From NCBI RefSeq assembly GCF_001889265.1, contig NZ_CP018151.1, forward strand, positions 1,116,001-1,180,000: a stretch of DNA of 64,000 bases. Direction: 5' to 3'. This document shows, one piece after another, positions 27,778-43,986 of the stretch (positions are counted from its first letter, which is position 1; the number at the start of each line of letters is the position of its first letter). Both the position numbers and the translations under genes were made by a program. The DNA is from Microbacterium sp. 1.5R (lineage in GTDB: Bacteria > Actinomycetota > Actinomycetes > Actinomycetales > Microbacteriaceae). The notes under the pieces were generated by a model that saw only the letters and a list, made by a program, of their open reading frames with translations, did not search any database and was not told the origin of the DNA.

Positions 27778-30009
27778 ATGAGTGACACAACGAAGACTGT
27801 CGAAGACCACTCGCTTCCCCCGGTGGCTGTCGATGAGAAGCCGCGCTGGACACCGCTGAAGATCGTCCTCTGGGCGGCGATCGCGCTACTGGGCGGTGTC
27901 GCCTGGACGATGCTCGCCATCGTCAGAGGCGAGACGGTGAACGCGATCTGGTTCGTGTTCGCGGCGGTCTGCACCTATCTCGTCTTCTACCGTTTCTACT
28001 CGAAGTTCATCGAGCGCAACCTCGTCAAGCCGAACGACCGACGCGCGACACCCGCCGAGTACAAGGCGGACGGCAAGGACTACGTCGCGACCGACCGTCG
28101 AGTGCTGTTCGGACACCACTTCGCCGCGATCGCGGGTGCCGGCCCTCTCGTGGGACCCGTGCTCGCCGCGCAGATGGGCTACCTGCCGGGCACGATCTGG
28201 ATCATCGTCGGAGTCGTCCTGGCGGGTGCCGTGCAGGACTACCTCGTGATGTTCTTCTCGATGCGCCGGGGCGGGCGCTCTCTCGGCCAGATGGCCCGCG
28301 ACGAGCTCGGTCGATTCGGCGGCACGGCGGCCATCGTCGCCACACTCCTCATCATGATCATCATCACGGCGATCCTCGCTCTCGTCGTGGTGAACGCCCT
28401 CGGCGAGAGCCCCTGGGGCGTGTTCTCCGTGGCCATGACGATCCCGATCGCCCTGTTCATGGGTGCGTACCTCCGGTGGATCCGACCAGGCAAGATCACC
28501 GAGGTGTCGCTCATCGGGTTCGTGCTCCTGATGGCGGCGATCATCGGCGGCGGGATGGTCGCCGAGACCGACTGGGGTCAGGCGGTCTTCACCCTCGACC
28601 GCACGACGATCGCGTGGGGGATCATCATCTACGGCTTCATCGCCGCGGTGCTGCCGGTGTGGATGCTGCTCGCTCCGCGCGACTACCTCTCGACCTTCAT
28701 GAAGATCGGCGTGATCGTGGCACTCGCCGTCGCGATTCTTTTCGTGCGGCCCGAGATCACCGTCCCGGCCTTCAGTGAATTCGCTGCGGGGGAGACGGGG
28801 CCGGTCTGGGCGGGTTCCCTCTTCCCGTTCCTGTTCGTGACGATCGCCTGCGGGGCGCTGAGCGGATTCCATGCGCTCATCGCGTCGGGCACCACGCCGA
28901 AGATGATCGAGAAGGAGAAGCAGACCCGCTTCATCGGCTACGGCGGCATGCTCATGGAGTCGTTCGTCGCGATCATGGCGCTCGTCGCCGCGATCTCGAT
29001 CGACCGTGGTCTGTACTTCGCGATGAACTCCTCGCCGGCCGCGACCCTCGGCACCGTCGAAGGCGCCGTGCAGTTCGTCAACAGCCTCGGGCTGACGGGG
29101 GTGAACCTGACCCCCGAGATGCTCACGAGCACGGCCGAGGCTGTGGGGGAGGAGTCGATCGTCTCCCGGACCGGCGGTGCGCCGACCCTCGCTCTCGGCC
29201 TCGCGCACATCATGCAGCAGTGGATCGGCGGCACCGGGATGATGGCGTTCTGGTATCACTTCGCAATCATGTTCGAGGCGCTGTTCATCCTGACCGCGGT
29301 GGATGCCGGCACCCGTGTCGCGCGATTCATGCTGCAGGACTCGGTCGGCAACGTCATCCCCCGTTTCAAGGACACGTCGTGGCGGGCCGGGGCCTGGATC
29401 TGCACGGCGGTGATGGTCGCGGGCTGGGGCGCGGTGCTGATCATGGGCGTCACGGACCCTCTCGGCGGCATCAACACCCTGTTCCCGTTGTTCGGCATCG
29501 CCAATCAGCTGCTGGCGGCCATCGCGCTCGCCGTGGTGCTCACCATCGTCGCCCGCAGGCGCACGTTCACGGTTCTCTGGGTGGTCGCTCTGCCGCTGGC
29601 ATTCGTGACGGTCGTCACCGTCACGGCGTCGCTGCAGAAGATCTTCTCGAGCGTGCCGCAGGTCGGCTACTTCGCCAATCACGTCGCCTTCCGCGACGCG
29701 CTGGCTGCGGGCGAGACGTCGTTCGGCACGGCGACCAGCGTCGCCGCGATGGAGGCGGTGGTGCGCAACACGATGATCCAGGGCATCCTGTCGGTGACTT
29801 TCCTCGTGCTGTCTGTGATCGTCATCACGATCTCGATCGTCAAGGTCATCCAGGCGGTGCGACCCGGGCCGATCATCGATCACGAAGACCCGGAGGTGCC
29901 GTCGCGTCGGTTCGCTCCGGCAGGACTCATCGCCTCACCGGAGGAGCGCGCGGTCGAGAAGGAGTGGAACGCGCTGCCCTCGTCCGCCCAGCCGACGAGG
30001 GGGCACTGA
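27778..30009 (+). CDS. cstA: carbon starvation protein A family (peptide/pyruvate transporter)
   Basis: Large membrane protein, 743 residues, 16 or more helices. CstA hallmarks: HFAAIAGAGPLVGPVLAAQMGYLPGTIWIIVG, VQDYLVMFFSMRRGGRSLGQ, and LFVTIACGALSGFHALIASGTTPKMI. Family members import pyruvate or peptides during carbon limitation. The C-terminal ~60 residues are cytoplasmic. ATG 27778 follows GGAG at 27763-27766. The stop TGA 30007-30009 shares its A with the ATG of the YbdD-like gene, so the two are coupled, as in E. coli cstA-ybdD. Confidence 0.94.
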   Translation: MSDTTKTVEDHSLPPVAVDEKPRWTPLKIVLWAAIALLGGVAWTMLAIVRGETVNAIWFVFAAVCTYLVFYRFYSKFIERNLVKPNDRRATPAEYKADGKDYVATDRRVLFGHHFAAIAGAGPLVGPVLAAQMGYLPGTIWIIVGVVLAGAVQDYLVMFFSMRRGGRSLGQMARDELGRFGGTAAIVATLLIMIIITAILALVVVNALGESPWGVFSVAMTIPIALFMGAYLRWIRPGKITEVSLIGFVLLMAAIIGGGMVAETDWGQAVFTLDRTTIAWGIIIYGFIAAVLPVWMLLAPRDYLSTFMKIGVIVALAVAILFVRPEITVPAFSEFAAGETGPVWAGSLFPFLFVTIACGALSGFHALIASGTTPKMIEKEKQTRFIGYGGMLMESFVAIMALVAAISIDRGLYFAMNSSPAATLGTVEGAVQFVNSLGLTGVNLTPEMLTSTAEAVGEESIVSRTGGAPTLALGLAHIMQQWIGGTGMMAFWYHFAIMFEALFILTAVDAGTRVARFMLQDSVGNVIPRFKDTSWRAGAWICTAVMVAGWGAVLIMGVTDPLGGINTLFPLFGIANQLLAAIALAVVLTIVARRRTFTVLWVVALPLAFVTVVTVTASLQKIFSSVPQVGYFANHVAFRDALAAGETSFGTATSVAAMEAVVRNTMIQGILSVTFLVLSVIVITISIVKVIQAVRPGPIIDHEDPEVPSRRFAPAGLIASPEERAVEKEWNALPSSAQPTRGH

Positions 30010-30215
30010 TGTCTGCGGCGGTGGCCGAGGCGGCGCGCAGGATCTGGCACTCCGTCGCCTGGTACATGAACGGCGTGACAGGGCAGTCGCGGTACACGGC
30101 CTACGTCGCGCACGAACGGGAGCGGCATCCCGAGCGAGAGCCGCTCACCGAACGCGAGTTCTGGCGGGCGCACTACGCCCAGCAGGATGCCGACCCCGGA
30201 GCCCGCTGCTGCTGA
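30009..30215 (+). CDS. YbdD/YjiX family (DUF466) small protein
   Basis: 68 residues. Family features: a short amphipathic N-terminus (RRIWHSVAWYMNGVTGQSRYTAYVAHERERHPERE), then LTEREFWRAHYAQQD, and a C-terminal Cys pair. YbdD/YjiX partners CstA-type transporters and is needed for pyruvate uptake in E. coli. Start ATG 30009 overlaps the cstA stop as TGATG. Followed by the 19-bp hairpin shared with convergent fumC. Confidence 0.92.
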   Translation: MSAAVAEAARRIWHSVAWYMNGVTGQSRYTAYVAHERERHPEREPLTEREFWRAHYAQQDADPGARCC

Positions 30216-30224
30216 GGGGCAGAG

Positions 30225-30267
30225 ACGACGGATGCCGCAGGGAACCAGTCCCTGCGGCATCCGTCGT
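30225..30267. terminator. bidirectional hairpin terminator
   Basis: Perfect 19-bp stem ACGACGGATGCCGCAGGGA, loop ACCAG. Between convergent ybdD and fumC. Confidence 0.88.
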
Positions 30268-30282
30268 GTCAGCGTCCGGTGA

Positions 30283-31698
30283 TCAACCCGGGTGGGTCAT
30301 CGACAGCAGGTCGAGCTTCTCGTCGAGCTGCTCGAGCGTCAGGTCTCCGCGCTCGACATAGCCGAGGTCGATCACGGCGTCGCGCACCGTGATGCCCTTC
30401 GCGACCGAGTGCTTGGCGATCTTCGCCGCAGCCTCGTAGCCGATGAGCTTGTTGAGCGGGGTGACGATCGACGGGCTCATTCCGGCGAAAGCCGCCGCGC
30501 GGTCGAGGTTCGCCTGCAGTCCGTCGACGGTCTTGTCGGCGAGCACGCGCGAGGCGTTGGCGAGCAGACGGATCGACTCGAGAACGGCGGTGCCCATGAC
30601 CGGGATCGCGACGTTGAGCTCGAACGAGCCGGATGCTCCGGCCCAGGCGACGGTCGCGTCGTTGCCGATCACTCGTGCGCACACCATCAGCACGGCCTCG
30701 GGGACGACCGGGTTCACCTTTCCGGGCATGATCGAGGAACCCGGCTGCAGGTCGGGGATGTGCAGTTCGCCGAGTCCGGTGTTGGGGCCGGAGCCCATCC
30801 AGCGCAGGTCGTTGTTGATCTTGGTCAGCGAGACGGCGATCGTGCGCAGCGCGCCGGACGCCTCGACGAGACCGTCGCGGTTGGCCTGTGCCTCGAAGTG
30901 ATCCTTGGCCTCGGTGATCGGAAGCTCGGTCTCGGCTGCGAGCAGCTCGATGACCTTCTGCGGGAATCCGAGCGGGGTGTTGATGCCGGTGCCGGTGGCG
31001 GTGCCGCCGAGCGGGACCTCGGCGACGCGGGGGAGCGCCGACTGCACGCGCTCGATGCCGAGGCGCATCTGACGGGCGTAGCCGCCGAACTCCTGGCCCA
31101 GGGTGACGGGCGTGGCGTCCATGAGGTGCGTGCGACCCGACTTCACCGCGTCCTTCCACAGCTCGGCCTTCGCCTCGAAGGCGACGGCGAGGTGGTCGAG
31201 CGCGGGGATGAGGGTGTCGATGAGCGCCTGCGTGACAGCGATGTGCACCGAGGTCGGGAACACGTCGTTCGACGACTGCGAGGCGTTCACATGGTCGTTC
31301 GGGTGCACATCCGCACCGAGGATGCGCGTCGCGAGCGTCGCGAGCACCTCGTTCATGTTCATGTTCGACGACGTGCCGGAGCCCGTCTGGTAGGTGTCGA
31401 CGGGGAACTCGCCGTCATGTGCACCGGATGCGACCTCGTCGGCGGCCTGGGCGATCGCGTCCGCGATGGCCCCATCGAGCGTGCCCAGCTCCTTGTTCGC
31501 GAGCGCGGCGGCCTTCTTGATGCGCGCGAGGGCGGCGATCTGCGTGGATTCGAGGCCCTTGCCCGAGATCGGGAAGTTCTCGACGGCGCGCTGCGTCTGT
31601 GCGCCGTAGAGCGCGTTCACGGGAACACGCACCTCGCCCATCGTGTCGTGCTCGATGCGGTAGCCCTGCGCGTCTGCGCCGCTGTGCTGGTCGGTCAT
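30283..31698 (-). CDS. fumC: class II fumarate hydratase
   Basis: Interconverts fumarate and malate in the TCA cycle. 471 residues. Fumarase/aspartase superfamily: [57 protein letters not shown] and the signature [11 protein letters not shown] containing the catalytic serine loop. Oxygen-stable, no Fe-S cluster. ATG 31698 overlaps the carbonic anhydrase stop (ATGA). Last gene of the five-gene minus-strand operon xseA-xseB-DUF4245-carbonic anhydrase-fumC; the same fum/DUF4245/xse grouping occurs in mycobacteria. Confidence 0.96.
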
Positions 31699-32384
31699 TC
31701 CGAACCCTCCTTGGTTGCGGGGCTGTGCCCCTCGGTGTCGTTTCCGTCTGTGTCGAGTCCGACCGTGATGACGGGAATCGCGGTTCCCTCGGCCAGACGG
31801 TAGTTGGCGCCGACGATGCCCAGACGACCCTCGGCGACGGCGTGGGAGATCACCTCGGACGACTGCAGCAGGTCGCGGACCGTGTTGCGCAGGTGCTCCT
31901 GGCCGACCAGGTCGGCGTCGATCTCGGCGACCGTGGTCCCGCCGCTCTCGACGAGCACCTTCCGGGCCGCAGGCACGATCGGTGCGATGAGCTTCCAGAT
32001 GTGCGGCGGCAGCGGCGCCGCGTCGATCGCGGTGCCGTCGATGGCGGCGCGCACAGCACCGCACGAGTCGTGTGCGAGCACGACGATCAGGGGGACGTTC
32101 AGCACCGCGACCGCGTACTCGAGGCTCGCGACGATCGACTCGCCGATCACCTGACCGGCATTGCGGACGACGAACAGGTCGCCGAGCCCCAGGTCGAAGA
32201 TGATCTCCGCGGCCAGCCGGGAGTCGGAGCATCCGAACAGGGTGGCGACAGGATGCTGCGCCGCAGCCAGGTGCTTGCGTCGGGCGACATCCTGATTCGG
32301 GTGCCGCGGGGCGTCATCGACGAATCGCTGGTTGCCCTCCTGCATCTGCTTCCAGGCGGCGGCGGGCGTGAGCGTGTCTGTCAT
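31695..32384 (-). CDS. beta-carbonic anhydrase
   Basis: Zinc enzyme interconverting CO2 and bicarbonate. 229 residues. Zn ligands Cys52 (FGCSDSR), His105 and Cys108 ([10 protein letters not shown]); Asp54-Arg56 dyad of the catalytic site. [26 protein letters not shown] is the usual C-terminal strand. The acidic tail is nonconserved. ATG 32384 is five bases after the DUF4245 stop; ends overlapping fumC. Supplying bicarbonate next to a TCA gene is plausible but not shown. Confidence 0.93.
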
Positions 32385-32389
32385 GAGGG

Positions 32390-33028
32390 CTACTCCGAGA
32401 GGTCGCGGATCTGGGGGACGAGGGACTCGGCGAGCTCGGCGGTGGAGTCGGCGGAGCGTGAGCCGTAGAGCAGCAGGTAGTCGTCACCCGCCTGGGTGCC
32501 GATCGCATAGGTGATGTTCTGCTTCGCACCGGCATCGCCGAGGTCGTAGACGTCCCACTCCAGCCCGCCGATCGACGTCGTGTCCGTCGGCGCGGTTCCG
32601 TTGAGGCGCTGCGGGGCCCAGGCTGCGTCAGCATCGAAGGCCTGTGCCAGCTTGATGAATCCGCGCTCATCCTCGGCTGACGGGGCGAGGGTGACATCCC
32701 AGACCGTCGTCGCGCCGCTCGTGAGCTCGGCCGTGTTGACTCTCCAGAAGTCGGCCAGGTCGGGCACGATCACCGGGCGATCCATGGTGGACTCCACGTC
32801 CGCGGCTACGCCGACCACGTCGATCTTCTGGGCGGTCGCGGGTTCGCCACGGGGAACTGCGAGCACGATCACCGTGACGATGGCCAGCGTGACGATCAGA
32901 GCGGCCACCAGGCTGCGCACCGTCTGGCTCGAGCGATAGGCCTTGCTCGACGCGGCCTTGCGGGCCGCCGTCTCTTCGGGGGTCTCCGGCCGGCCCAGTT
33001 CGGCGACGATGGGAGCGGGCTTGCTCAT
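32390..33028 (-). CDS. DUF4245 domain membrane-anchored protein
   Basis: 212 residues from ATG 33028, which overlaps the xseB stop (ATGA). Acidic N-terminus ([37 protein letters not shown]), one transmembrane helix (about 40-60), then an extracytoplasmic ~150-residue domain ([46 protein letters not shown]). The N-terminal [13 protein letters not shown] segment is the family's conserved cytosolic motif. Unknown function; conserved between xseB and fum in actinobacteria. Confidence 0.88.
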
Positions 33029-33264
33029 GAGTCGTCTCCGTCGGCGGCACCGGTCGACGTCGCACGGGCGGCCTCGAGGCGACGCTTGGCGCCGAGCAGC
33101 CATTCCTCACAGCGGGCCGCCAGGGCCTCGCCGCGCTCCCAGAGAGCGAGCGACTGCTCGAGGGTCGGAGCGCCCTGTTCGAGCTCGGAGACGACCTTCA
33201 CGAGCTCATCGCGAGCGGCCTCGAATGACAGCGTGTCCACAGGGGTGTCGTTCGGCGCACTCAC
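33025..33264 (-). CDS. xseB: exodeoxyribonuclease VII small subunit
   Basis: 79 residues, a two-helix bundle: [44 protein letters not shown], the standard XseB core that coats the XseA stalk. Acts with XseA on single-stranded DNA. GTG start 33264; gap of 31 bases to xseA. The tail past residue 65 is acidic and variable. Confidence 0.95.
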
Positions 33265-33295
33265 GCCTCCATCCTACGCGGTACGCGGGACCCGC

Positions 33296-34588
33296 TCATC
33301 CGGAGCGGGGCACCGGTGCTTCCGCGATCTCGCCCTCGGAACGGGCCGCGACGGAGCCGCGGTCGACCGTGATCGTCAGGCTGCTGCCGGCCGGAGCGTC
33401 GGCGGCGTCGCGGAGGATCACTCCGCCCTCGAGATGGGCGATCGCATAGCCGCGCGACAGCGTGGCCGCGGGGGAGAGCGCCCGCAGTGAGGCTCGCAGC
33501 TCGCTCGTCGCACGGCCGGCCGCATCGTGCTGACGGGTGATCGTGTCGCGTCCCCGCGAAAGCAGCAGCCACACGTCCTGAGAACGCGACTCGATGATCG
33601 GGTCGGGGGAGCGCAGCGAGGGACGGGACCGCAGCTGCTCGAGCTGTGCGATGTCGTGCGACAGCCGCTGCGTCAGTCGGGTCGTGGCTCGGGATCGCAG
33701 CTGCGCGATCAGCGCCCGCTGCTCGCTGACGTCGGGTACGACGCGCTTCGCGGCATCCGTCGGAGTCGATGCGCGCAGGTCGGCCACGTCGTCCAGAAGC
33801 GGATGATCGTTCTCGTGTCCGATCGCGCTGACGATCGGAGTCGTTGCCGCGGCCACAGCCCGGACGAGTCGTTCGTCACTGAATCCGAGCAGCGTCTGCG
33901 GATCGCCGCCGCCGCGGGCGATGACGATCACGTCGACATCCGGGTCGGCGTCCAGTCGTGCCAGAGCGGCGAGGGTCTCGGGGACGCACCGGTCGCCCTG
34001 AACAGCCGCATACTCCGTGCGGAAGCGCACCTGGGGCCAACGCAACTCGGCGTTGCGGTGCACGTCCTTCTCGGCATCCGACTTCTCTCCCGTGATCAGG
34101 CCGATCACATGGGGGAGGAACGGGAGGCGCTTCTTGCGCGAGGCGTCGAACAGGCCCTCCTGGCGCAGCTGCAGTCGCAGCTTCTCCAGCTTCTCCAGCT
34201 GATCGCCGAGGCCCACGTGCTTCATCGCCGAGACGGCGAAGCTGAAATCGCCGGCCTTGACGAAGTAGTCGGCCTTGACGGCGGCGACGACATGGTCGCC
34301 GACAGCCAGATCGCCGGGGATCCGCGGGCGCACACTCGACCAGATCCTGATGGAGATCTGCGCGTCGGAGCGGGTGTCCTTGAGCCGGGCGAAGATGTTG
34401 CCCCCGCGCACGTTCCAGGAGGTGATCTCGCCTTCGACCCACACCGTGTTCCAGCGCGCCACGAAGTCGCGGATCGTCGCGTTCAGGCGTGCGACCGAGG
34501 TCGGTGCGTCGGCCGAGGAGTCGCGCGGGGCGACCGCATCCGCCGGCGGAGTCTCGCCAGGACGCGTCGATGCTTCGAAGACCGTCAT
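33296..34588 (-). CDS. xseA: exodeoxyribonuclease VII large subunit
   Basis: Catalytic subunit, 430 residues. N-terminal OB fold (WVEGEITSWNVRGGNIFARLKDT), catalytic core (LPHVIGLITGEKSDAEKDV, VIVIARGGGDPQTLLGFSDERLVRAVA, PIVSAIGHENDHPLLDDVADLRASTPTDAAKRVVPD, which holds the conserved GHExDxxxxDxxAD motif with Asn-Asp here), then the long coiled-coil stalk. ATG 34588 heads the operon. The start of divergent ispH is 54 bases away. Confidence 0.95.
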   Translation of the reverse strand: MTVFEASTRPGETPPADAVAPRDSSADAPTSVARLNATIRDFVARWNTVWVEGEITSWNVRGGNIFARLKDTRSDAQISIRIWSSVRPRIPGDLAVGDHVVAAVKADYFVKAGDFSFAVSAMKHVGLGDQLEKLEKLRLQLRQEGLFDASRKKRLPFLPHVIGLITGEKSDAEKDVHRNAELRWPQVRFRTEYAAVQGDRCVPETLAALARLDADPDVDVIVIARGGGDPQTLLGFSDERLVRAVAAATTPIVSAIGHENDHPLLDDVADLRASTPTDAAKRVVPDVSEQRALIAQLRSRATTRLTQRLSHDIAQLEQLRSRPSLRSPDPIIESRSQDVWLLLSRGRDTITRQHDAAGRATSELRASLRALSPAATLSRGYAIAHLEGGVILRDAADAPAGSSLTITVDRGSVAARSEGEIAEAPVPRSG

Positions 34589-34642
34589 GCGCTCGGTGCC
34601 CCTTCCCGCTCCTGCTCAGGTTCTCGGCGGTAGAATTCAAGG

Positions 34643-35722
34643 GTGACCTCGACTGCCGTTCATCTGCCTCTGCCGCGCATCCCCCGAGTACGTGGGGCGG
34701 CCGGGCGGCTTCAGGATAACCCGGTCGTCGGCAACAAGCGTGTTCTGCTCGCCGCTCCGCGCGGATACTGCGCCGGCGTCGACCGGGCTGTGGTCGCCGT
34801 CGAGAAGGCGCTCGAGCGCTACGGCGCGCCGGTCTACGTGCGCAAGCAGATCGTGCACAACATCCACGTCGTCACCGAGCTCGAGGAGAAGGGCGCGATC
34901 TTCGTCGAGGAGGTCGACGAGGTTCCCGAGGGCGCTCACGTCGTCTTCAGTGCGCACGGAGTCTCGCCCGCGGTCGTCGAGGCGGCGTCGGACCGCGGCC
35001 TGCACGCCATCGACGCGACCTGCCCGCTGGTCACCAAGGTTCACCGCGAGGCAGTGCGTTTCGCCCGCGACGATTTCGAGATCCTGCTCATCGGTCACGA
35101 GGGGCACGAGGAGGTCGAGGGCACCGCGGGAGAGGCTCCCGAGCACGTGACCATCGTGAACTCGCCCGCCGAAGCCGACACCGTGCAGGTGAAGGACCCC
35201 TCGAAGGTGGTCTGGCTCTCGCAGACCACGCTCTCGGTCGACGAGACCATGGAGACCGTGAACCGACTGCGGGCCCGGTTCCCCGAGATGCACAATCCGC
35301 CGTCCGATGACATCTGCTACGCCACGCAGAACCGCCAGGTCGCCATCAAGAAGGTCGCGGCGAACGCCGACCTCGTGATCGTCGTCGGTTCCTCGAACTC
35401 GTCGAATTCGGTGCGCCTCGTCGAGGTCGCGCTCGAATACGGCGCGAAGGCCGCCTATCGCGTGGACTACGCCGAAGAGGTCAAGCAGGAGTGGCTCGAC
35501 GGCGTTGCGACTGTCGGTGTCACCAGCGGCGCCTCCGTGCCCGAGGTGCTGGTTCGCGAGGTCCTCGACGCACTCGACGGAGCGGGTTACCGCGACGTCG
35601 AAGAGGTCAAGACGGCGGAGGAGGACCTCATGTTCTCCCTGCCCAAGGAGCTGCGACAGGATGCCGCGGGTCAGCGAGATGCGCGTGCGCTGGGAGGCCG
35701 TTCCTCCAGCGGGAACGCCTGA
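34643..35722 (+). CDS. ispH: 4-hydroxy-3-methylbut-2-enyl diphosphate reductase
   Basis: Last enzyme of the MEP isoprenoid pathway; Fe-S enzyme making IPP and DMAPP. 359 residues. Cluster cysteines Cys43 ([12 protein letters not shown]), Cys128 ([11 protein letters not shown]) and Cys226 ([11 protein letters not shown]); HNIHVV and SAHGVSP supply substrate-binding His; [13 protein letters not shown] 34643 is six bases after TAGAAT (34631-34636): leaderless. The C-terminal ~35 residues are disordered. The IclR gene begins two bases after the stop. Confidence 0.97.
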
Positions 35723-35724
35723 CG

Positions 35725-36516
35725 GTGGCCGCCACAGAGGCGGCGCCGACGCTGATCGGCTCGGTGCAGCGCGCGCTCCGACTCGTCGACATGGTCGCGA
35801 ACTCTCCGCGCCCGGTGCCGGTCAAGACTCTCGCCATGCGAACCGGCCTCACCCCGGGCACGACCTACAACCTCGTGCGCACACTGGTGCATGAGGGGTA
35901 TCTCGTGAGCGAGCCCGACGGTCTGGTCCTCGGCGAGAACTTCCCCGCTTTCCGGCTGCAGTCCGACGCCGGGGGCGTGTTCTTCGCGCATGTCCGCATG
36001 GCCCTGCGTCAGACCGCCGACGAGGTGGGTGCTTCCGCATACCTGTCCCGCTATCAGGACGGCGAAGTGCACCTCATCGACATCGTGGATGCCCCGCGCA
36101 GTCCTCGGCTCGATCTGTGGGTGGGTCTGGATTCGAGCGCGCATGCCACGGCGCTCGGCAAGCAGATCCTCAGCGATCTGAGCGGAGAGGAGCGTGACGA
36201 CTATCTCTCGCGGCATCCGCTGGAGGAACTCACGTCTCGCACGATCAGTGACCGGCGTGCGCTGATCGCGGAGCTCGACCGCTCTCCGGGATTCGCCGTG
36301 GACCGCGAGGAGTATGCCATCGGCAACACCTGCATCGCCGTTCCCGTGATCGCCCCGAGCGTCAGAGCCTCACTCGCCGTCTCGCTTCCTGTGGGACACC
36401 CGCGCTTCGATCGCGGCCTGCTCGGGAAGCTCAAGCTCGTGGCGAGGCGGTTGTCCATGCAGTTGGGGGCGGACGCTCTGGGCGGCGGCGCAGCCCGTCT
36501 GGCGACGCCGATCTGA
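35725..36516 (+). CDS. IclR family transcriptional regulator
   Basis: 263 residues. N-terminal winged helix (IGSVQRALRLVDMVANSPRPVPVKTLAMRTGLTPGTTYNLVRTLVHEGYL), then the IclR effector domain (GASAYLSRYQDGEVHLIDIVDAPR, VGLDSSAHATALGKQILSDL, FAVDREEYAIGNTCIAVPVI). Ligand unknown. GTG 35725 is used because the HTH begins ten residues later; no Shine-Dalgarno lies in the two-base gap, so reinitiation after ispH is likely. Bacterial IclR proteins normally sit with catabolic genes, so an ispH operon is unusual. Confidence 0.87.
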   Translation: MAATEAAPTLIGSVQRALRLVDMVANSPRPVPVKTLAMRTGLTPGTTYNLVRTLVHEGYLVSEPDGLVLGENFPAFRLQSDAGGVFFAHVRMALRQTADEVGASAYLSRYQDGEVHLIDIVDAPRSPRLDLWVGLDSSAHATALGKQILSDLSGEERDDYLSRHPLEELTSRTISDRRALIAELDRSPGFAVDREEYAIGNTCIAVPVIAPSVRASLAVSLPVGHPRFDRGLLGKLKLVARRLSMQLGADALGGGAARLATPI

Positions 36517-36596
36517 CGCAGCACGTGTCGCCCGTCTGATGCTCTTCACTATCTGAAGAAGTGCCTCTGGTGCTCGGGCACGCGCTTTCCTAACAT

Positions 36597-36742
36597 GTGA
36601 GGTGTAGTCGTCTGTGCAATCGGCGCTACAGGTGGAGGAATGTCCCCAGCGTTCCTCACCCCACTTGGATGACGAGCGTCCCCAGCGTTCCGAGTCCGCG
36701 GCCCCGAGGAGTCCCCACTCCTCCGGGGCCGCCATTCTTTTG
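36597..36742 (+). ncRNA. candidate small RNA with three CCCC-loop hairpins
   Basis: TAACAT (36591-36596) is a plausible -10. The transcript would carry hairpin 1 GAGGAATG-TCCCCAG-CGTTCCTC (36635-36657), hairpin 2 GAGCG-TCCCCAG-CGTTC (36674-36690) with the identical loop, a CACCCCAC linker, and a terminator GGCCCCGAGGAGT-CCCC-ACTCCTCCGGGGCC (36700-36730) followed by TTCTTTT (36735-36741). No coding frame explains it. C-rich loops exposed like this resemble the logic of 6C-type or anti-Shine-Dalgarno sRNAs. The coding gene after it has its own leaderless promoter. Confidence 0.65.
36700..36741 (+). terminator. intrinsic terminator of the sRNA
   Basis: 13-bp GC stem with one bulged C, loop CCCC, and a U-tract TTCTTTT after CCA. 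The only canonical hairpin-plus-U-tract terminator seen in the window. Confidence 0.85.
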
Positions 36743-36792
36743 ACGCCCGCAGTCTGTGAGTCGTGCAGAGACCGGGCGGATACCATGGCCGA

Positions 36793-37332
36793 ATGACCGA
36801 TCAGCGTCCTCAGTACGGCGAAATCGCGACCCTCGAAGAGCAGCGGAGGGCAGCAGGGCTGCCGCCGCTGGGCGAGGTGCCGGCTGTGGATGTGAGCGGG
36901 ACCGAGAACGCGCCCGCTCCCGGTGACCGAGTCCCGTCCGCATCGGCAGCGGCTCGTCCGCGTCCCGTCGATCGCTTCGTGACCATCGCACTGCTCGCCT
37001 ACGGGCTGATCAATGTCGTGATGACAGGACTGTCATACCTCGACTTCTCCACCGCGATGAATCAGATGATGACGGTGCTCGGCGTGGACGGCGAGTTCAC
37101 CAACTTCGCTGAGGGCCGGATCTGGGGAACCGTCGCGGCGATAGTGCTCGCCGTGGGCTGGTCGCTCACCGCTTTCCTGTCGATCCGCCGCCTGCGCGCC
37201 GGCAAGCTCTCGTGGTGGGTTCCGCTGGTCGGTGCGGCCGTGACCCTGCTCGTGGCGTCTGTATGCGCCGCGATTCCGCTGATGAACGACCCGGCGTTCA
37301 TCGACTTCGTCGCCAAGACGGCGGGTGGATGA
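36793..37332 (+). CDS. DUF6264-like membrane protein
   Basis: 179 residues: an N-terminal cytoplasmic stretch RPQYGEIATLEEQRRAAGLPP, typical of this Microbacteriaceae family, a Pro/Ala linker, then three transmembrane helices (about 63-85, 108-130, 140-162). Unknown function. ATG 36793 is six bases after TACCAT (36781-36786): leaderless. Ends before a hairpin shared with convergent fba. Confidence 0.8.
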   Translation: MTDQRPQYGEIATLEEQRRAAGLPPLGEVPAVDVSGTENAPAPGDRVPSASAAARPRPVDRFVTIALLAYGLINVVMTGLSYLDFSTAMNQMMTVLGVDGEFTNFAEGRIWGTVAAIVLAVGWSLTAFLSIRRLRAGKLSWWVPLVGAAVTLLVASVCAAIPLMNDPAFIDFVAKTAGG

Positions 37333-37346
37333 CCCCGTGAAACAGG

Positions 37347-37378
37347 AGATGCCCCCGGCCGTTCGGTCGGGGGCATCT
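37347..37378. terminator. bidirectional hairpin terminator
   Basis: 14-bp stem AGATGCCCCCGGCC with one G-U pair, loop GTTC, between the DUF6264-like gene and convergent fba. Confidence 0.82.
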
Positions 37379-37394
37379 GCGTTGTCAGGCTGGA

Positions 37395-38423
37395 TCAGCT
37401 CTGGGACTGGCCGTACGAGCCGAGCTGGCGCGTGGACTCGACGACGCGAGCGGCCATGGCCGTCTCCGCGATCTTGCCCCAGGCGCGCGGGTCATACTGC
37501 TTCTTGTTGCCGACCTCGCCGTCGACCTTGAGCACACCGTCGTAGTTCTTGAACATGTAGTCCGCGATGGCACGCGTGTAGGCGTACTGCGTGTCGGTGT
37601 CGATGTTCATCTTGATGACGCCGTTGGCAACCGCGAGGGCGATCTCCTCATCGGTCGAACCAGAACCGCCGTGGAAGACGAGGTCGAGCGGCTTCGCGCC
37701 GGTGTTGTACTTCTCGGCGACCTGCTGCTGGATCTCTCCGAGGAGCTCGGGACGCAGCTTCACTCCGCCCGGCTTGTAGACGCCGTGGACGTTGCCGAAC
37801 GTGAGGGCTGCGATGTAGCGCCCCTGCTCGCCGAGACCGAGCGCCTGTACGGCCTGGTCGACGTCCGCGAACGTCGTGTAGAGGGCATCGTTGGATCCCT
37901 CGTGCGCCACACCGTCTTCCTCGCCGCCGACGACGCCGATCTCGACCTCGAGGATGGCGTTGATGTTCTTCATGCGGGGCAGGAGATCCTTGGCGATCTC
38001 GATGTTCTCCGCGAGCGGCACGGCCGAGCCGTCCCACATGTGGGACTGGAAGATCGGGTTGCGTCCCGCCTTGACCTCGTCTTCGGAGGCGGAGATCAGC
38101 GGCTCGACGAAGCCGGCGAGAGCATCCTTCGGGCAGTGGTCGGTGTGCAGCGCGACGGTGATCGGGTAGTTCTTCGCGACCTCGGTCGCGAAGCGCGCGA
38201 AGGCGAGTGCGCCGGTCGCGCGGGCCTTGACCGTGTGGCCGGCGAAGTAGTCGGCGCCGCCGGTGGTGACCTGGATGATTCCGTCGGAACCTGCCTCGGT
38301 CAGGCCCTGGAGGACGGAGTTGATGGTCTGCGAGCTCGAGACGTTGAAAGCCGGGTACGCGAAGCCGCCGGCCTTCGCGCGGTCGAGCATTTCGGCGTAC
38401 TGATCCGGGGTGGCGACGGGCAT
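37395..38423 (-). CDS. fbaA: class II fructose-bisphosphate aldolase
   Basis: Glycolysis and gluconeogenesis; Zn-dependent cleavage of fructose-1,6-bisphosphate. 342 residues. HTDHCPKD (His93, Asp95, His96), EVEIGVVGGEEDGVAHEG, ALTFGNVHGVYKPG (Zn His), LVFHGGSGSTDEEI (Zn His and phosphate loop), KMNIDTDTQYAYTR. ATG 38423 with AGGAG seven to eleven bases upstream. Divergent from glpX, so opposite steps at the fructose-bisphosphate node share one 183-base control region. Confidence 0.96.
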   Translation of the reverse strand: MPVATPDQYAEMLDRAKAGGFAYPAFNVSSSQTINSVLQGLTEAGSDGIIQVTTGGADYFAGHTVKARATGALAFARFATEVAKNYPITVALHTDHCPKDALAGFVEPLISASEDEVKAGRNPIFQSHMWDGSAVPLAENIEIAKDLLPRMKNINAILEVEIGVVGGEEDGVAHEGSNDALYTTFADVDQAVQALGLGEQGRYIAALTFGNVHGVYKPGGVKLRPELLGEIQQQVAEKYNTGAKPLDLVFHGGSGSTDEEIALAVANGVIKMNIDTDTQYAYTRAIADYMFKNYDGVLKVDGEVGNKKQYDPRAWGKIAETAMAARVVESTRQLGSYGQSQS

Positions 38424-38531
38424 GAGAACTCCTGCGATTTGGGGAAGCCGGGACAGCAGTCACTCTATCGGGGCTGACTGCCGGATGCTGTCGGCGGCGA
38501 CGGGGCGAGCACGCCCTCCTACCCGTATGTT

Positions 38532-38548
38532 AAGAATCGGGATTCCTT
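38532..38548. promoter_or_regulatory. palindrome between fba and glpX, possible operator
   Basis: AAGAATC-GG-GATTCCTT: the inner GAATCGGGATTC is a 5-bp dyad with a 2-base centre. Located between divergent fba and glpX, 59 bases before glpX. No regulator recognised. Confidence 0.3.
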
Positions 38549-38606
38549 CGTCGTCACTTGACCGAAAACTGCCGTTTCAGACGTTCACGCTGGTTAGGCT
38601 GACCGC

Positions 38607-39593
38607 ATGGTTAGTCTTACAGCGGATCTCAGCCCCCTTCGTCCCGATCGAAACCTCGCGATGGAGCTGGTGCGGGCCACTGAAGCAGCCGCCATCCGGG
38701 CCGTTCCGTTCATCGGTCGTGGCGCGAAGGAGGCGGCGGACGGCGCCGCCGTCGATGCGATGCGTGCCTTCCTCGGGACAGTGGCCTTTCAGGGGCGAGT
38801 GGTCATCGGTGAGGGCGAGAAGGACAATGCTCCGATGCTCTTCAACGGCGAAGAGGTCGGCACCGGCAGCGGCCCGGAGTGCGACATCGCGGTCGACCCG
38901 ATCGATGGCACCTCGCTGACCGCAGCAGGACGTCAGAATGCGCTCTCCGTCATCGCCGTCTCCGATCGCGGATCGATGCTCGACGCGTCCAGCGTCTTCT
39001 ATATGGACAAGCTCGTCACGGGCCCTGCCGGTGTCGGAGTGGTCGACATCCGCCTGCCGATCGGCGAGAACATCCGCAAGCTCGCGGGGGCTCTCGGCAA
39101 GCCGGTGGACGAGATCGTCGTCTCGGTGCTGAACCGTCCGCGTCACGAGCAGCTGATCCAGGAGATCCGGGATGCCGGTGCCGGGACGCGACTCATGAGC
39201 GACGGCGACGTCGCCGGCGGGATCAACGCGGCGCGTCACGCGGCCCGAACCGACATGTGCGTCGGGGTGGGCGGCAGCCCCGAGGGAATCGTGACGGCGT
39301 GTGCGATCAAGGCTCTCGGCGGTCACATCCAGGGGCGGCTCTGGCCTCGCGACGACGATGAGCGCCAGCGCGGAATCGACGCCGGCCTCGACATGGACAA
39401 GGTCTACGAGGCCGACGATCTCGTGCGCGGGGACAACACGATCTTCGTCGCCACCGGCGTCACGGACGGCCAGCTGGTGGCCGGCGTCCGACGCGAGGGC
39501 GGCTACATCTACACCGAGAGCGTCGTGCTGCGCGGTGCCTCGGGAACCCTTCGCCGGATCGCCTCGGAGCACCTCGTCTCGAAGTGGCTCTGA
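38607..39593 (+). CDS. glpX: class II fructose-1,6-bisphosphatase
   Basis: Removes the 1-phosphate of fructose-1,6-bisphosphate in gluconeogenesis; the main FBPase of actinobacteria. 328 residues. Metal and phosphate sites GEGEKDNAPMLFNGE, DIAVDPIDGTSLTAAGRQNALSVIA, DMCVGVGGSPEGIVTACAIKALGG. ATG 38607 is six bases after TAGGCT (38595-38600): leaderless. The C-terminal YIYTESVVLRGASGTLRRIASEH is the conserved last strand-helix. Confidence 0.96.
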   Translation: MVSLTADLSPLRPDRNLAMELVRATEAAAIRAVPFIGRGAKEAADGAAVDAMRAFLGTVAFQGRVVIGEGEKDNAPMLFNGEEVGTGSGPECDIAVDPIDGTSLTAAGRQNALSVIAVSDRGSMLDASSVFYMDKLVTGPAGVGVVDIRLPIGENIRKLAGALGKPVDEIVVSVLNRPRHEQLIQEIRDAGAGTRLMSDGDVAGGINAARHAARTDMCVGVGGSPEGIVTACAIKALGGHIQGRLWPRDDDERQRGIDAGLDMDKVYEADDLVRGDNTIFVATGVTDGQLVAGVRREGGYIYTESVVLRGASGTLRRIASEHLVSKWL

Positions 39594-39763
39594 CTGCCGT
39601 GACCTGAGAGCGCGAGTCGGGAACGGGCCCCTCATCGTTACCGACCCGGTACCGCCTGTGCGGTGCTGAGCCGAGCTTTCTCGTGCGTTCGTGTGACAAT
39701 TGACACTGGATTTGTCGCCGTCGACGGAGCCGCCAGGCACCGCAGGCACAGGAGGGCAGACCG

Positions 39764-40060
39764 ATGACAACGCAGCACACGAATGGTTCCCAGGCCACGC
39801 CGACCAAGATCGTGACGACGCCGACCGGCCGGATCATGCGGATCAACGTCGACGAGGCCGGAGTGCCTCTGCCGATCGCGACTCCGGCGGCGCCTGTCGT
39901 CAAGACAGCTGTCTCAGATCCCGCTCGACGTGCGGACGTGCTGTTCCGCAAGCGCCTCGACGAGGGGCACGAGATCAGCTCCTGGTGGATGGTCGGAGCT
40001 TTCGTCGTGACCAGTGGCCTCGTGATCCTGCTGCTCAGCGGCGTACCGGGCGTCGCCTGA
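39764..40060 (+). CDS. hypothetical small tail-anchored membrane protein
   Basis: 98 residues. A polar Thr-rich N-terminus (KIVTTPTGRIMRINVDEAGVPLPIA), a basic helix (DPARRADVLFRKRLDEGHE) and one C-terminal transmembrane helix (about 75-95). No family recognised. Strong RBS AGGAGG (39750-39755) before ATG 39764; TTGACA at 39700-39705 may be a -35. Convergent with rmuC, two bases between stops. Confidence 0.72.
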   Translation: MTTQHTNGSQATPTKIVTTPTGRIMRINVDEAGVPLPIATPAAPVVKTAVSDPARRADVLFRKRLDEGHEISSWWMVGAFVVTSGLVILLLSGVPGVA

Positions 40061-40062
40061 TC

Positions 40063-41445
40063 TCAGCGGCGGGGCTCTTCCGCCTCGACCTGTCGGGATG
40101 CCGAATCCAAGTTCGCCGATTCGTCGTCGCTGACCCGGCCGCGAACGTCTCCGACATCGGCCTGGATCGACGTACCCGGCGCAGCGGACGCATCGTCAGC
40201 AGCATGGGGGATGCGGAGCTCGGAGCCGATCTCCGCACCGGAGCCGCTCATGAGCTCTGCCGAGGTGAAGCGTCGCGTCTGCGCGGTGATCGCCGGTGGG
40301 GCGGAGTCGAGCGTCGACGCGCTGATTCCGGGGAACTGCCTGGCCGTCACGAGCACACGGCTCTCGAGCGAACCCGCGAATCTGTTGTAGCTGTCGACCG
40401 TGCGTTCGAGTGCGCGGCGCAGATCGTCGGCGTGCCCTGCGAGGACGCCGAGTCGGTCGTAGAGCTGGGTGCCGAGATTCAGCAGTGCGCGCGCCTCGGT
40501 CGACACCTCTTGCTGCGTCCAGCTGTAGGCCACGGTCTTGAGCACGGCCCACAGATTCACTGGGGAAGCGAGCGCCACCTTCTTCGTGAACGCGTAGTCC
40601 AGCAGCGTCGGGTCTTCGTCGATGGCTGCGGCGAGCAGCGACTCGCTCGGCAGGAAGCAGATGACGAACTCAGGACTGGCGTCGAGGCCCGTCCAGTACG
40701 CCTTCTTCGCGAGTGCGTCGACGTGCGCGCGAACGGCCTTCACGTGCTTCTGCATGTGGGAGCGACGCTGGGTCTCATGCGCGTCCCCGATCGGCAGTGC
40801 CGATGCCTCGAGGTAGGCATCGAGCGGAACCTTGGCGTCGACCGCGATCGATGTGCCGCCGGCAAGACGGATCACCATGTCGGGCCGTCCCTGACCCCGG
40901 TCTGACGAGATGCTGGACTGCAGATCGAAGTCGACGTGTCGGATCAGCCCTGCGGCCTCGACGACCCGTCGCAGCTGCGTCTCACCCCAGACCCCTCGCG
41001 TGGCGGTCGAGCGCAGTGCTCCGGCGAGCGACTCGGTCGTCGAGCGCAACGCCTCGTCGGACTCCTGCGCGCGCCTGAGCTGCTCCGCGAGCGATCCGAA
41101 CTGCGCATGACGCTCCTGCTCGATCGCCGAGACCTTCTGCTGCATCTGCTGGAGACTCTCGCGCACGGGCGCGAGCGCGGTGAGCACGGCATTCTGCTGC
41201 TGCACCCGCTGGGCTTCGGCGCGCTGCTCGAGCCGTGCGTGCTCGACGGCATCCCGATACAGGTCGTACTGTCGGTCGCGATCGTCTCGAGCTGCGGCGA
41301 GCTCTGCCTCGGCGCGAGCGAGGTCTGCTGCTCCGCGCGATCCGCGGAGGAACCACCCCGCGGCGGCGCCGGCCGCGAGCGCGACCAGGAGAAGAACGAG
41401 CGTGAGAGCATCCATGTGCTCCATGATGCGCTCGGCCACGGACAT
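40063..41445 (-). CDS. rmuC: DNA recombination protein RmuC
   Basis: 460 residues. N-terminal transmembrane helix (about 13-33), a long coiled coil (about 38-115), then the PD-(D/E)XK-like RmuC core: GVWGETQLRRVVEAAGL, RPDMVIRLAGGTSIAVDAKVPLDAYLEA, FVICFLPSESLLAAA, VALASPVNLWAVLKTVAYSW. Limits DNA inversions/repeat rearrangement. The tail after residue ~400 is disordered. ATG 41445 is the longest start; ATG 41424 and 41415 are alternatives just before the helix. Confidence 0.92.
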   Translation of the reverse strand: MSVAERIMEHMDALTLVLLLVALAAGAAAGWFLRGSRGAADLARAEAELAAARDDRDRQYDLYRDAVEHARLEQRAEAQRVQQQNAVLTALAPVRESLQQMQQKVSAIEQERHAQFGSLAEQLRRAQESDEALRSTTESLAGALRSTATRGVWGETQLRRVVEAAGLIRHVDFDLQSSISSDRGQGRPDMVIRLAGGTSIAVDAKVPLDAYLEASALPIGDAHETQRRSHMQKHVKAVRAHVDALAKKAYWTGLDASPEFVICFLPSESLLAAAIDEDPTLLDYAFTKKVALASPVNLWAVLKTVAYSWTQQEVSTEARALLNLGTQLYDRLGVLAGHADDLRRALERTVDSYNRFAGSLESRVLVTARQFPGISASTLDSAPPAITAQTRRFTSAELMSGSGAEIGSELRIPHAADDASAAPGTSIQADVGDVRGRVSDDESANLDSASRQVEAEEPRR

Positions 41446-41459
41446 CCGTCCGGTGCGAC

Positions 41460-42053
41460 TCAGGCGACCGCGCGCTCCGGGGTGGCGAGGACCGGCTCGG
41501 TCACTCGCAGCGACAATGCATCCGCCAGGGAGAAGACGTCAGACGCGCCGTGTCGGCGAGTGGCGTCGATGATGATGTGGGCGCACGCGAGCGCGTCCGC
41601 AAGCGCGTCATGGTGCGAGAAGCCGGTGAAGCCCGCAGCCTCTGCGGCTTTCGGGAGTCGGTACGACTCGAGGTCGTAGGTCTTGCGAGCCACCTGCAGG
41701 CTGCACAGCGAGCGATACGGCGGGCAGTCGCCGCCGGTGGCCTCGGACGCCCGGCGGAGCACATTGAGGTCGAAGCCCGCGTTGTGCGCCACGAGCACGT
41801 CGGCGCCGGCGAAGGCGCACAGGCGGTCGAACTGATCGGCCCAGGTGGCCGCGTCGATCACGTCGTGGGCGCGGATGCCGTGGATCTTGGTGTTCCACTC
41901 CTGGAACTCGTCGTGACCGGCGGGCGGGCGGATCAACCATCCGGCGGTGGCGACGATCCTGCCGTCGCGCACCCGTACGAGGCCGACGGAGCAGGCCGAG
42001 GCGGGGCTGGAGTTCGCCGTCTCGAAGTCGATTGCGGTGAAATCCAGTGGCAC
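41460..42053 (-). CDS. 3'-5' exonuclease (DnaQ/DEDDh type)
   Basis: 197 residues, RNase T/DNA polymerase III epsilon-like. Metal ligands: AIDFETAN (motif I, Asp and Glu), LVAHNAGFDLNVL (motif II Asp), SHHDALADALACAHI (motif III His and Asp). Possibly proofreading or DNA/RNA end trimming. GTG 42053 is preferred because GGGAGAG lies upstream; ATG 42074 in frame is an alternative. Fourteen bases before rmuC and probably co-transcribed. Confidence 0.87.
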   Translation of the reverse strand: MPLDFTAIDFETANSSPASACSVGLVRVRDGRIVATAGWLIRPPAGHDEFQEWNTKIHGIRAHDVIDAATWADQFDRLCAFAGADVLVAHNAGFDLNVLRRASEATGGDCPPYRSLCSLQVARKTYDLESYRLPKAAEAAGFTGFSHHDALADALACAHIIIDATRRHGASDVFSLADALSLRVTEPVLATPERAVA

Positions 42054-42112
42054 ATCCCCACTCTCTCCCGGCATCCGAGACGCTCCAGGATGACGCGCCG
42101 TAGGCTGGCGAC

Positions 42113-42862
42113 ATGAGTACCGACCGAGCGACATCCTTCGGCGCCGAGGCCGCGAACTACGAGGCGGGAAGACCCGAGTATCCCTTCGAGGCCGTGTCGT
42201 GGATGCTCGATCCGATGCCTCACGGCTCCCGTCGCATCGCCGACGTGGGCGCGGGCACCGGAAAGCTCACACGTGTGCTCGCGCAGGCCCCGGATGCCGA
42301 GGTCGTCGCCGTGGATCCGGACGCCGCCATGCTCGCGACACTGCGGCGGAGCGTTCCCGGTGTTCCGACTTTCCAGGGAACAGCCGAACGGATGCCGCTG
42401 CCCGACGCCAGCCTCGACGCCGCCGTGCTGGGTCAGGCCTGGCACTGGGTCGAGCCGTCTGCGGCGTCCCTCGAACTCGGACGAGTCGTCCGCACCGGGG
42501 GAGTGCTGGGGCTGATCTGGAACATCCGCGACGAACGCGCGGACTGGGTGCGCCGTCTCACTGACATCATGCACAGCAGTCCGGCGGAGGACATGGTCAA
42601 CGGACCCGGCTCCGACGGCCCGCGCATCGAGGCCCCGTTCACGGGGATCGAGAAGCAGCAGTGGGAGTGGACCCGGGCGATGAACCGGACGCAGTTGCAT
42701 CAGATGGCGCGCTCGCGCAGCTACCTGATCGCGGCGTCGGACGACGAACGCTCAGAGATCACACGGCAGATGGACGAGCTGTTCGACGAGCTCGGACTCG
42801 ACGGTGAGGGGACGATCGACCTGCCCTACGTGACGCACGCATTCCGCGCCGTGCGAGCCTGA
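42113..42862 (+). CDS. class I SAM-dependent methyltransferase (type 11)
   Basis: 249 residues. FGAEAANYEAGRPEYP opening, SAM motif IADVGAGTGKLTRVLA, acidic VVAVDPDAAML, then GTAERMPLPDASLDAAVLGQAWHWVEP, a hallmark of the UbiE-like group with unknown substrate. ATG 42113 is six bases after TAGGCT (42101-42106): leaderless. Divergent from the exonuclease, 59 bases between starts. Confidence 0.87.
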   Translation: MSTDRATSFGAEAANYEAGRPEYPFEAVSWMLDPMPHGSRRIADVGAGTGKLTRVLAQAPDAEVVAVDPDAAMLATLRRSVPGVPTFQGTAERMPLPDASLDAAVLGQAWHWVEPSAASLELGRVVRTGGVLGLIWNIRDERADWVRRLTDIMHSSPAEDMVNGPGSDGPRIEAPFTGIEKQQWEWTRAMNRTQLHQMARSRSYLIAASDDERSEITRQMDELFDELGLDGEGTIDLPYVTHAFRAVRA

Positions 42863-42912
42863 CGCCGACACCCGCAGGGGCTGCGCATCTGCGACCGGTA
42901 GACTCGACCCCC

Positions 42913-43986
42913 GTGGCTCTCACTATCGGAATCGTCGGCCTGCCCAATGTCGGCAAGTCCACCCTCTTCAACGCTCTGACCAAGAACGACGTGCTCGCGG
43001 CGAACTATCCGTTCGCGACGATCGAGCCGAACGTCGGGGTGGTGAACCTGCCCGATCCTCGTCTCGACAAGCTCGCCGAGATCTTCGGCAGCGAGCGCAT
43101 CCTGCCCGCCGCGGTGTCGTTCGTCGACATCGCCGGCATCGTGCGCGGCGCGAGCGAGGGAGAGGGACTCGGCAACAAGTTCCTCGCGAACATCCGCGAG
43201 GCGGATGCCATCGCCCAGGTCGTGCGCGGGTTCGCGGATGACGATGTCGTGCACGTGGACGGTGCGGTCAATCCGGCATCCGACATGGAGACCATCAACG
43301 CCGAGCTCATGCTGGCCGACCTCGAGACCGTCGACAAGGCGATCACGCGGTACGAGAAGGAGGTGCGCGGTAAGAAGATCGAGCCCGTCGTCCTCGAGAC
43401 CGCCAACGCGGCGAAGGATGCGCTCGAGCGTGGTGTGCTGCTGTCCGTCGCGGGCATCGATCTGACGCCGATCCGCGAGCTCGGACTCCTCACCGCCAAG
43501 CCGGTCATCTTCGTCTTCAACGTCGACGAGGGCGTGCTCACCGACGACGCCCGCAAGGCGGAGCTCGCCGCGCTGGTCGCCCCGGCGAAGGCCATCTTCC
43601 TCGACGCCAAGATCGAGTCCGAGCTGATCGACCTCGACCCCGAGGATGCCGCAGAGCTGCTCGCGTCGACCGGGCAGGACGAGTCCGGTCTCGACCAGCT
43701 CGCCCGCATCGGCTTCGACACTCTCGGACTGCAGACCTACCTCACGGCTGGCCCGAAAGAGGCGCGCGCGTGGACGATCCCCAAGGGATCCAAGGCGCCG
43801 CAGGCCGCCGGAGTCATCCACACCGACTTCGAGAAGGGCTTCATCAAGGCTGAGATCGTCTCGTTCGACGACCTCGTCGAGACCGGGTCCGTCGTCGAAG
43901 CCCGCTCCAAGGGCAAGGCCCGCCTCGAGGGCAAGGACTACGTCATGCAGGACGGCGACGTCGTGGAGTTCCGTTTCAACAACTGA
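42913..43986 (+). CDS. ychF: ribosome-binding ATPase YchF (Obg family)
   Basis: Redox-regulated ATPase that binds ribosomes. 357 residues, full length. P-loop [38 protein letters not shown] (switch), NVDE for the NKxD site (NVDE gives ATP specificity), an inserted coiled coil, and the C-terminal TGS domain ([29 protein letters not shown]-like). GTG 42913 is eight bases after TAGACT (42899-42904), nearly leaderless. Last of the genes shared with the mycobacterial block. Confidence 0.96.
   Translation: [357 protein letters not shown]

Follow-up and report, generated by a model that had tools for sequence, protein, structure and literature searches.

A family of UCCCCAG-tipped small RNAs in Microbacterium and its candidate UGGGGA-bearing target leaders

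The window, a stretch of 64,000 nucleotides from Microbacterium sp. 1.5R, carries on its + strand a gene for an IclR-type regulator (35724..36516, start approximate; family assigned on a first reading of the sequence and by eye), followed by a gene for a DUF6264 protein (36796..37332, +; PF19779 by Pfam match). Flanked by these two genes is sRNA A (36597-36742, +), which was delimited from sequence, fold and conservation. Its -10 element, TAACAT (36591-36596, +), is present as originally predicted, and a -10 is conserved in relatives, mostly as TATGAT with TTTCC before it, while no -35 of the TTGACA type was found ahead of the RNA. Upstream of this promoter lies a palindrome, TTCACTATCTGAA (36545..36557, no strand), a putative IclR-type operator. 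Of 32 loci compared, the 27 with iclR all carry it and the 5 lacking iclR all lack it too, and the window holds no further exact copy; it is probably the operator of the adjoining regulator. Since the palindrome tracks the presence of iclR and has no other copy in the window, we infer that the IclR-type protein would control sRNA A. The iclR gene is missing in some relatives that retain the RNA, and the DUF6264 gene is its constant downstream neighbor.

The predicted fold of sRNA A consists of four hairpins on the + strand. The 5' hairpin (36603..36630) places the transcription start probably near 36603, and its site forms a stem in about 25 of 31 short segments, each folded alone (counted by eye). 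Hairpin 1 (36631..36660) and hairpin 2 (36667..36697) carry the tip UCCCCAG at 36643-36649 and 36679-36685, respectively, and both have CGTTCC as their 3' strand; the heptamer's U and G are predicted to pair together, leaving CCCCA open. The RNA also contains a CACCCCAC linker, and it ends in a terminator hairpin (36698..36732) with the tip UCCCCA at 36712-36717, followed by a short U-rich tail, TTCTTTT (36735..36741, +). These two hairpins with a shared 3' strand, the linker and the third CCCC loop match the sequence as originally described. The folding energy is -68.3, compared to -49.3 (sd 3.7) for shuffled sequences (z -5.1), and 0 of 200 shuffles are as stable. We found no + strand ORF of at least 90 aa overlapping sRNA A, in line with the claim that it has no coding frame; two - strand ORFs of that size overlap it, and neither has support.

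The claim that this is the only classical terminator with a U-tract in the window was not confirmed: the stem is strong and conserved, but the U-tract is weak, differs among relatives and was not called by our mechanical scan of positions 25000-44999, which called six other sites (4.8 in shuffles). Counted singly, the six-mer TCCCCA shows no enrichment across the window (21 seen, 26.2 expected). Close same-strand pairs of it number two, compared to 0.04 expected, and by close-pair score it ranks only 20th of 551 six-mers in the window.

Using blastn over 58 genomes, we found nine syntenic copies of sRNA A besides that of the own genome, all in Microbacterium, together with a second match in one of these genomes (G023), which is sRNA B (see below), and a single short match outside the genus, in G046. 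A covariance model built from nine sRNA A copies (R1) matched 68 of 198 genomes of the genus at E<=0.1, of which 39 matched at E<1e-12. Conservation in relatives, whose lack had been named as grounds for giving up the small-RNA reading, is therefore present. In the best thirty R1 loci, the DUF6264 gene lies downstream in 30/30 and ispH upstream in 29/30, and every one contains at least three TCCCCA. Positions 15230 and 39370 of the window gave weak R1 matches and were rejected as family members; by eye, the former is a plain hairpin, a terminator-like GGAGACGGGCGTCCCAGCGCCCGTCTCC at 15232-15260 near a tRNA gene.

Covariation was assessed in 31 aligned copies, and since the alignment was fitted to the covariance model, the following statistics lean towards structure. 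Pair cells were paired in 94.3% of cases, compared to 88.4% in shuffles, and 55 cells had changed on both sides, compared to 18.2. The covariation score of 0.229 (0.128 shuffled) was reached by 0 of 500 shuffles and fell to at most 0.101 when the structure was slid along the alignment. Helix 1, which corresponds to hairpin 1, showed both-side changes in 7 of 9 pairs with 85% of cells paired, helices 2-3 correspond to hairpin 2, and helix 4, the terminator hairpin, was paired in 98% of cells and is the most conserved part of the RNA. The tips are kept almost without exception: UCCCCAG in 31/31 copies for hairpin 1 and 30/31 for hairpin 2 (one copy lacks the G), and UCCCCA in 31/31 for the terminator. 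When the pairs that close the tips are excluded, G-U cells number 68 and A-C cells 6, and since G-U cells would be mismatches on the other strand, we read sRNA A from the + strand. This comparison indicates that sRNA A is a conserved, structured, non-coding RNA, so that the original prediction of a small RNA showing CCCC in three loops is supported.

Beyond that prediction, sRNA A has relatives within the same genome, and its candidate targets carry several motif copies. sRNA B (contig C1:3054466-3054611, -), reached via one non-syntenic blastn match (L012), has its own -10 and a layout of two UCCCCAG-tipped hairpins within an outer stem, with UCCCCA in the loop of the terminator hairpin. A second covariance model (R2) was built from seven sRNA B copies, and matches at E<1e-12 were taken as B. 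At E<=0.01, R2 matched 115 of the 198 genus genomes, and 66 of these passed E<1e-12. A strong match occurs in 38 of the 39 genomes with a strong sRNA A (relatedness uncorrected). Across 297 genomes of the order, matches were confined to Microbacterium (9 genomes; 1 of 94 genera), and the exact B pattern in named genomes returned 37 records, 36 from Microbacterium (M. oxydans and M. maritypicum among them) and one from a "Microbacteriaceae bacterium." sRNA C (C1:56106-56247, +) is alike in layout and matches R2 with 58.8 bits; weaker R2 matches of 42-63 bits in many other genomes may be C or other family members. Candidate sRNA D (C1 about 1941590-1941690, -) matches R1 with 36.6 bits (E 1e-6) and probably belongs with A, B and C in the own genome, although its first UCCCCA is predicted to be paired in the fold of one genome. 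In A, B and C, by contrast, CCCCA is unpaired with a predicted probability near 1. Several UCCCCA tips plus a terminator at a conserved intergenic locus of the genus, the features by which we define the family, are found for A and B, and for C via R2, while D has its R1 match and a fold in one genome only. The idea that several R2 matches in a genome represent A, B and C was dropped, as the palindromic terminator of B can itself give a match on its reverse strand, and the number of R2 matches per genome was therefore not used as evidence.

Two more loci of the own genome attracted attention. Locus E (C1:2839080, L116) has UCCCCA motifs near a gntR-type gene (named by eye) and recurs in G029 and G034, three genomes in all (also L253, L248), and locus F (C1:123927, L094; also L245) has a UCCCCA/UGGGGA motif pair in two genomes, the own and G029; each is possibly a further sRNA of the family.

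Rfam searches of the window at gathering thresholds and of 36500-36800 at E<=10 returned no relevant family, and matches to sodF_sRNA, mir-28 and CcsR1 lay far below those families' own cut-offs and were discarded. The covariance check against 6C RNA (RF01066) that had been suggested gave no match at gathering in the window, nor at E<=10 in 36500-36800. RF01066 does score above its cut-off in three genomes of the genus (G013, G016 and G020), at other places (neighboring genes were read for G013); these three have no sRNA A match, and the A genomes carry sub-threshold 6C-like matches only. In the own genome, such a match (C1:56322-56382; L085 about 1823-1883) scores 28.3 bits, below the cut-off of 47, and is flanked by sRNA C and by a gene for a cold-shock-type protein (named by eye); six relatives have 6C-like matches with the same score. 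According to the available part of PMC4046766, 6C RNAs have two hairpin loops with about six C, and sRNA A instead has UCCCCAG tips and does not share the locus of 6C in relatives. By model, tip and locus, we classify A-D as a family separate from 6C; of the two options originally offered, a separate family stood and a divergent 6C relative did not. Searches of open-licence PMC literature, judged by titles and the starts of abstracts, turned up no Microbacterium C-loop sRNA family and no bacterial UGGGGA target motif.

To find candidate targets in the own genome, we searched for pairs of TCCCCA with 10-40 nt between them, using the reversed pattern as the control and sorting the rows by eye with the ORFs. 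There were 28 rows, compared to 6 for the reversed pattern: 5 are A-D, 14 are the leaders of nine genes, 2 are loci E and F, and 7 appear to be coding or chance. On the sense strand, each of the nine genes has 2-4 copies of UGGGGA that lie within its leader or overlap its start codon, with start codons being our own calls. They encode a cytidylyltransferase (PF01467), a sugar-phosphate transferase (PF02397), a glycosyltransferase 2 (PF00535; motifs at least about 70 nt upstream of the start we chose), an Ig-domain surface protein (PF17961), two secreted DUF5122-type propeller proteins (one above and one below the Pfam cut-off), a FliA-like sigma factor (PF04545; motifs about 45 and 70 nt before the start) and two products without a Pfam match. 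The suggestion that the C-rich loops could pair with GGGGA-type sites thus finds a counterpart in UGGGGA repeated across a coherent set of mRNA leaders. In the cytidylyltransferase leader, one UGGGGA overlaps the start codon, and two of the four copies are predicted hairpin tips, in which the U and A of the motif pair to close the GGGG. One propeller leader and that of a 124-aa gene likewise have a UGGGGA hairpin tip in the predicted fold, in which many other leader copies are partly paired. For all but two of the genes, the target call draws on a single genome.

Conservation of the leader motif was followed in the genus. For the sugar-phosphate transferase, 30 PF02397 matches with loci read were taken in score order. 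The first nine (at least 70% identity) have 2-3 UGGGGA at -74..-41 in 9/9 cases. Of the next eleven (47-61%), eight have at least two and up to five copies in leaders whose remaining sequence has diverged, and TGGGGA is the most often repeated six-mer among the eleven (8/11). The last ten (43-48%), a boundary drawn post hoc with the counts already known, have UGGGGA in 0/10 and may be other paralogues. UGGGGA is thus kept across species in one leader, which answers the proposed check for GGGGA in co-conserved targets. A preceding C is expected if UCCCCAG pairs with CUGGGGA, and C stands before TGGGGA in 35 of 50 leader copies, compared to 33 of 106 in the background (close relatives are non-independent). 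By eye, the close transferase group (L178-L186) also has a conserved small leader ORF, e.g. MSHWGYLRTFTAQGASA, and its stop codon overlaps the transferase start within an ATGA; UGGGGA precedes the ORF's own start, and a third UGGGGA forms the ORF codons TGG GGA in 7/9.

In three of the 30 loci, each from a different species (G025, G031 and G013), an R2-type sRNA lies divergently in the region upstream of the transferase homologue, scoring 57.4, 57.9 and 39.2 bits, respectively; the transferases of these genomes are 48-51% identical and perhaps not strict orthologues. A further locus (L187) has only a 23.4-bit R2 match. Extra UCCCCA motifs upstream of the R2 match in L194 (about 700-1100, -) and L197 (about 3280-3640, +) suggest at least two C-loop RNAs in tandem beside the transferase homologue. 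Two further species keep the cytidylyltransferase leader, which has GATC-UGGGGA-GATC-AUGGGGA at the gene start: G034, where it was read with the gene, and G029, as seen in the match rows only. For the FliA-like sigma factor, only G001 (84%) retains the motif; G021 has a degenerate form, and six genus homologues (53-56%) and seven more distant ones (36-41%) lack it. We therefore rejected it as a conserved target, with its motif upheld in the closest relative alone.

UGGGGA is not the usual ribosome site of this genome; in a sample made up of the window and 20 further stretches, each 20 kb long, that role falls to AAGGAG/AGGAGG. Gene calls in this sample are rough, with some starts misplaced, including that of one propeller gene; on these calls, TGGGGA falls within -24..-1 in 2 of 368 background genes and 1 of 29 genes in the polysaccharide stretch, so that either most copies there lie further upstream or the starts are misplaced. 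In 40 kb around the polysaccharide genes, a stretch picked because matches lie there, TGGGGA ranks 1st of 396 six-mers for close pairs (6 vs 0.11 expected), compared to 298th of 1070 in 360 kb of background, where its near neighbor TGGGGT ranks seventh (5 vs 0.17 expected).

Across genomes, UGGGGA pairs exceeded the reversed control by 221:52 (4.25-fold) in 10 genus genomes with sRNA A, one of which (G014) was counted by synteny with a weak score. The ratio was 125:45 (2.78-fold) in 9 genomes with an R2 match only, 178:96 (1.85-fold) in 16 genus genomes that lack both, and outside the genus it was 1.03-fold (23 genomes). With sRNA genes included and relatedness uncorrected, the Mann-Whitney p for A vs no A was 4e-4, and the Kruskal p was 8e-4. 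The excess in A genomes is due in part to the sRNA genes themselves: when these were removed, by subtracting five rows from each A genome and two from each genome with R2 only, the ratios became about 3.3, 2.4 and 1.85, with p values of 0.005 (A vs the rest) and 0.014, relatedness again uncorrected. There are exceptions in both directions, as G017, G012 and G019 have a pair excess despite no A or R2 match, and G004 has a strong R2 match with pairs below the control. Single motifs were not used as evidence, since a search with GCGTCCCCAGCG allowing one mismatch gave no excess, with 68 matches compared to 106 for its reversed control.

We propose, with a probability of roughly 75%, that these trans-acting sRNAs repress mRNAs for surface polysaccharides, surface proteins and motility through UCCCCAG/CUGGGGA pairing. 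sRNA A would be independently transcribed, intrinsically terminated and trans-acting, with a length of about 130-140 nt. A, B, C and probably D would display the heptamer at hairpin tips, and each could pair with the CUGGGGA repeated in leaders, at several places over the ribosome site, the start codon or the first codons. Since UGGGGA is itself a predicted hairpin tip in some mRNAs, first contact could be tip to tip. By covering the start region, such pairing would repress translation. Avidity would come from several tips facing several sites, and having several sRNAs would allow distinct signals to converge on a shared set of targets. We infer three parts of this scheme, namely transcription, in-cell pairing and repression. 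The computed energy of UCCCCAG/CUGGGGA is -11.9 kcal/mol, while the anti-Shine-Dalgarno reaches -5.5 kcal/mol with UGGGGA and -6.6 with AAGGAG; the sRNA could therefore outcompete a weak ribosome site, and by analogy with B11, RsaE and the icaR UCCCCUG element, repressed initiation is the likely result of pairing. Full seven-base pairing would require the heptamer ends to be opened, since its U and G are predicted to pair together, and activation is possible in some leaders. Judged by sequence alone, sRNA A falls in the functional class of RNAs with an unpaired C-rich loop complementary to ribosome-site regions of targets, with the caveat that several leader copies lie upstream of, not on, the ribosome site. 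We lean slightly towards the fuller picture of an RNA-only regulon, in which sister sRNAs sharing one heptamer, at least A, B and C and probably others, would act on multi-copy leaders through tip-to-tip avidity and one of the sRNAs would be tied to an IclR-type sensor.

Other readings of the same elements were weighed. Identical tips on varying stems, several per RNA, would also suit protein-binding sites, with A-D acting as sponges that titrate an RNA-binding protein as CsrB does CsrA. CsrB/RsmZ RNAs repeat GGA motifs in their loops, and the CsrA system shares with ours repeated loops with one motif, motility and biofilm targets, and motifs in leader hairpins. The own genome has a CsrA gene, and the UGGGGA hairpin tips near start codons resemble CsrA targets in layout. 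We nevertheless consider a sponge unlikely, since the sRNA loops are UCCCCA, which lacks a GGA motif and complements the leader motif exactly. Furthermore, CsrA, the one candidate protein examined, was dismissed as the common reader of the leaders because no PF02599 match was found in G005 and G034, both of which have A, a strong R2 match and UGGGGA leaders. If the motifs were instead transcription-factor DNA sites that chance to fall in hairpins, their recurrence upstream of genes with one functional theme would be explained. This is highly improbable given that orientation tracks transcription, with TCCCCA sense in the sRNAs and TGGGGA sense in the nine leaders (partly by our sorting), that several copies overlap the start or first codons and that the stems covary around the motif.

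Membership of sRNA A in a divergent branch of 6C is likewise quite improbable, even though both are actinobacterial RNAs of like design, with two C-rich hairpin loops plus a terminator hairpin, C has a sub-threshold 6C-like match just downstream of it, and the absence of A from the three genomes above the cut-off would permit mutual replacement. The tip is a fixed UCCCCAG with four C, not six, RF01066 finds no match even at E<=10, and 6C and 6C-like matches occupy other loci, that of the own genome being at C1:56322. Least probable of all is that the conserved element is a mere strong intergenic terminator accompanied by chance hairpins. Its position between iclR and the next gene and the high conservation of its last hairpin fit such a view; the conserved -10, the two further covarying hairpins, the retention of the element where iclR is absent and the unlinked sister loci with the same tips do not.

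The proposed repression by UCCCCAG-tipped sRNAs has parallels in known systems. Among C-loop sRNAs of actinobacteria, 6C/B11 (RF01066) is the best known. As PMC10470900 and PMC12395582 describe it, 6C/B11 has C-rich hairpin loops that include the terminator loop, as does A, and pairs with G tracts near start codons through partly redundant loops; either C-rich loop suffices on a G tract (PMC10470900), and the terminator loop is the seed (PMC12395582). In contrast, A has UCCCCAG at a different locus, several related RNAs per genome and candidate target leaders with repeated motif copies. RsaE/RoxS, which stands here with other C-rich sRNAs of staphylococci, resembles A in having two UCCCC motifs that bind mRNA ribosome sites, but it is a Firmicutes family and absent from the Rfam matches of the sRNA A region; repeated UGGGGA leaders go unmentioned in the accessible portion of PMC8334554, which describes RsaE. 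In the icaR 3'-UTR of S. aureus, the UCCCC of a UCCCCUG element pairs with a Shine-Dalgarno region, and exopolysaccharide and biofilm are under its control (PMC3868564); it works inside a single mRNA, unlike a trans-acting sRNA family.

Altogether, sequence alone yields a family, a seed and a coherent candidate target set in Microbacterium, a widespread genus. Few sRNA regulons have been worked out in actinobacteria. If true, the use of several sRNAs with one seed against multi-copy leaders would represent an unusual, avidity-based RNA control of surface functions.
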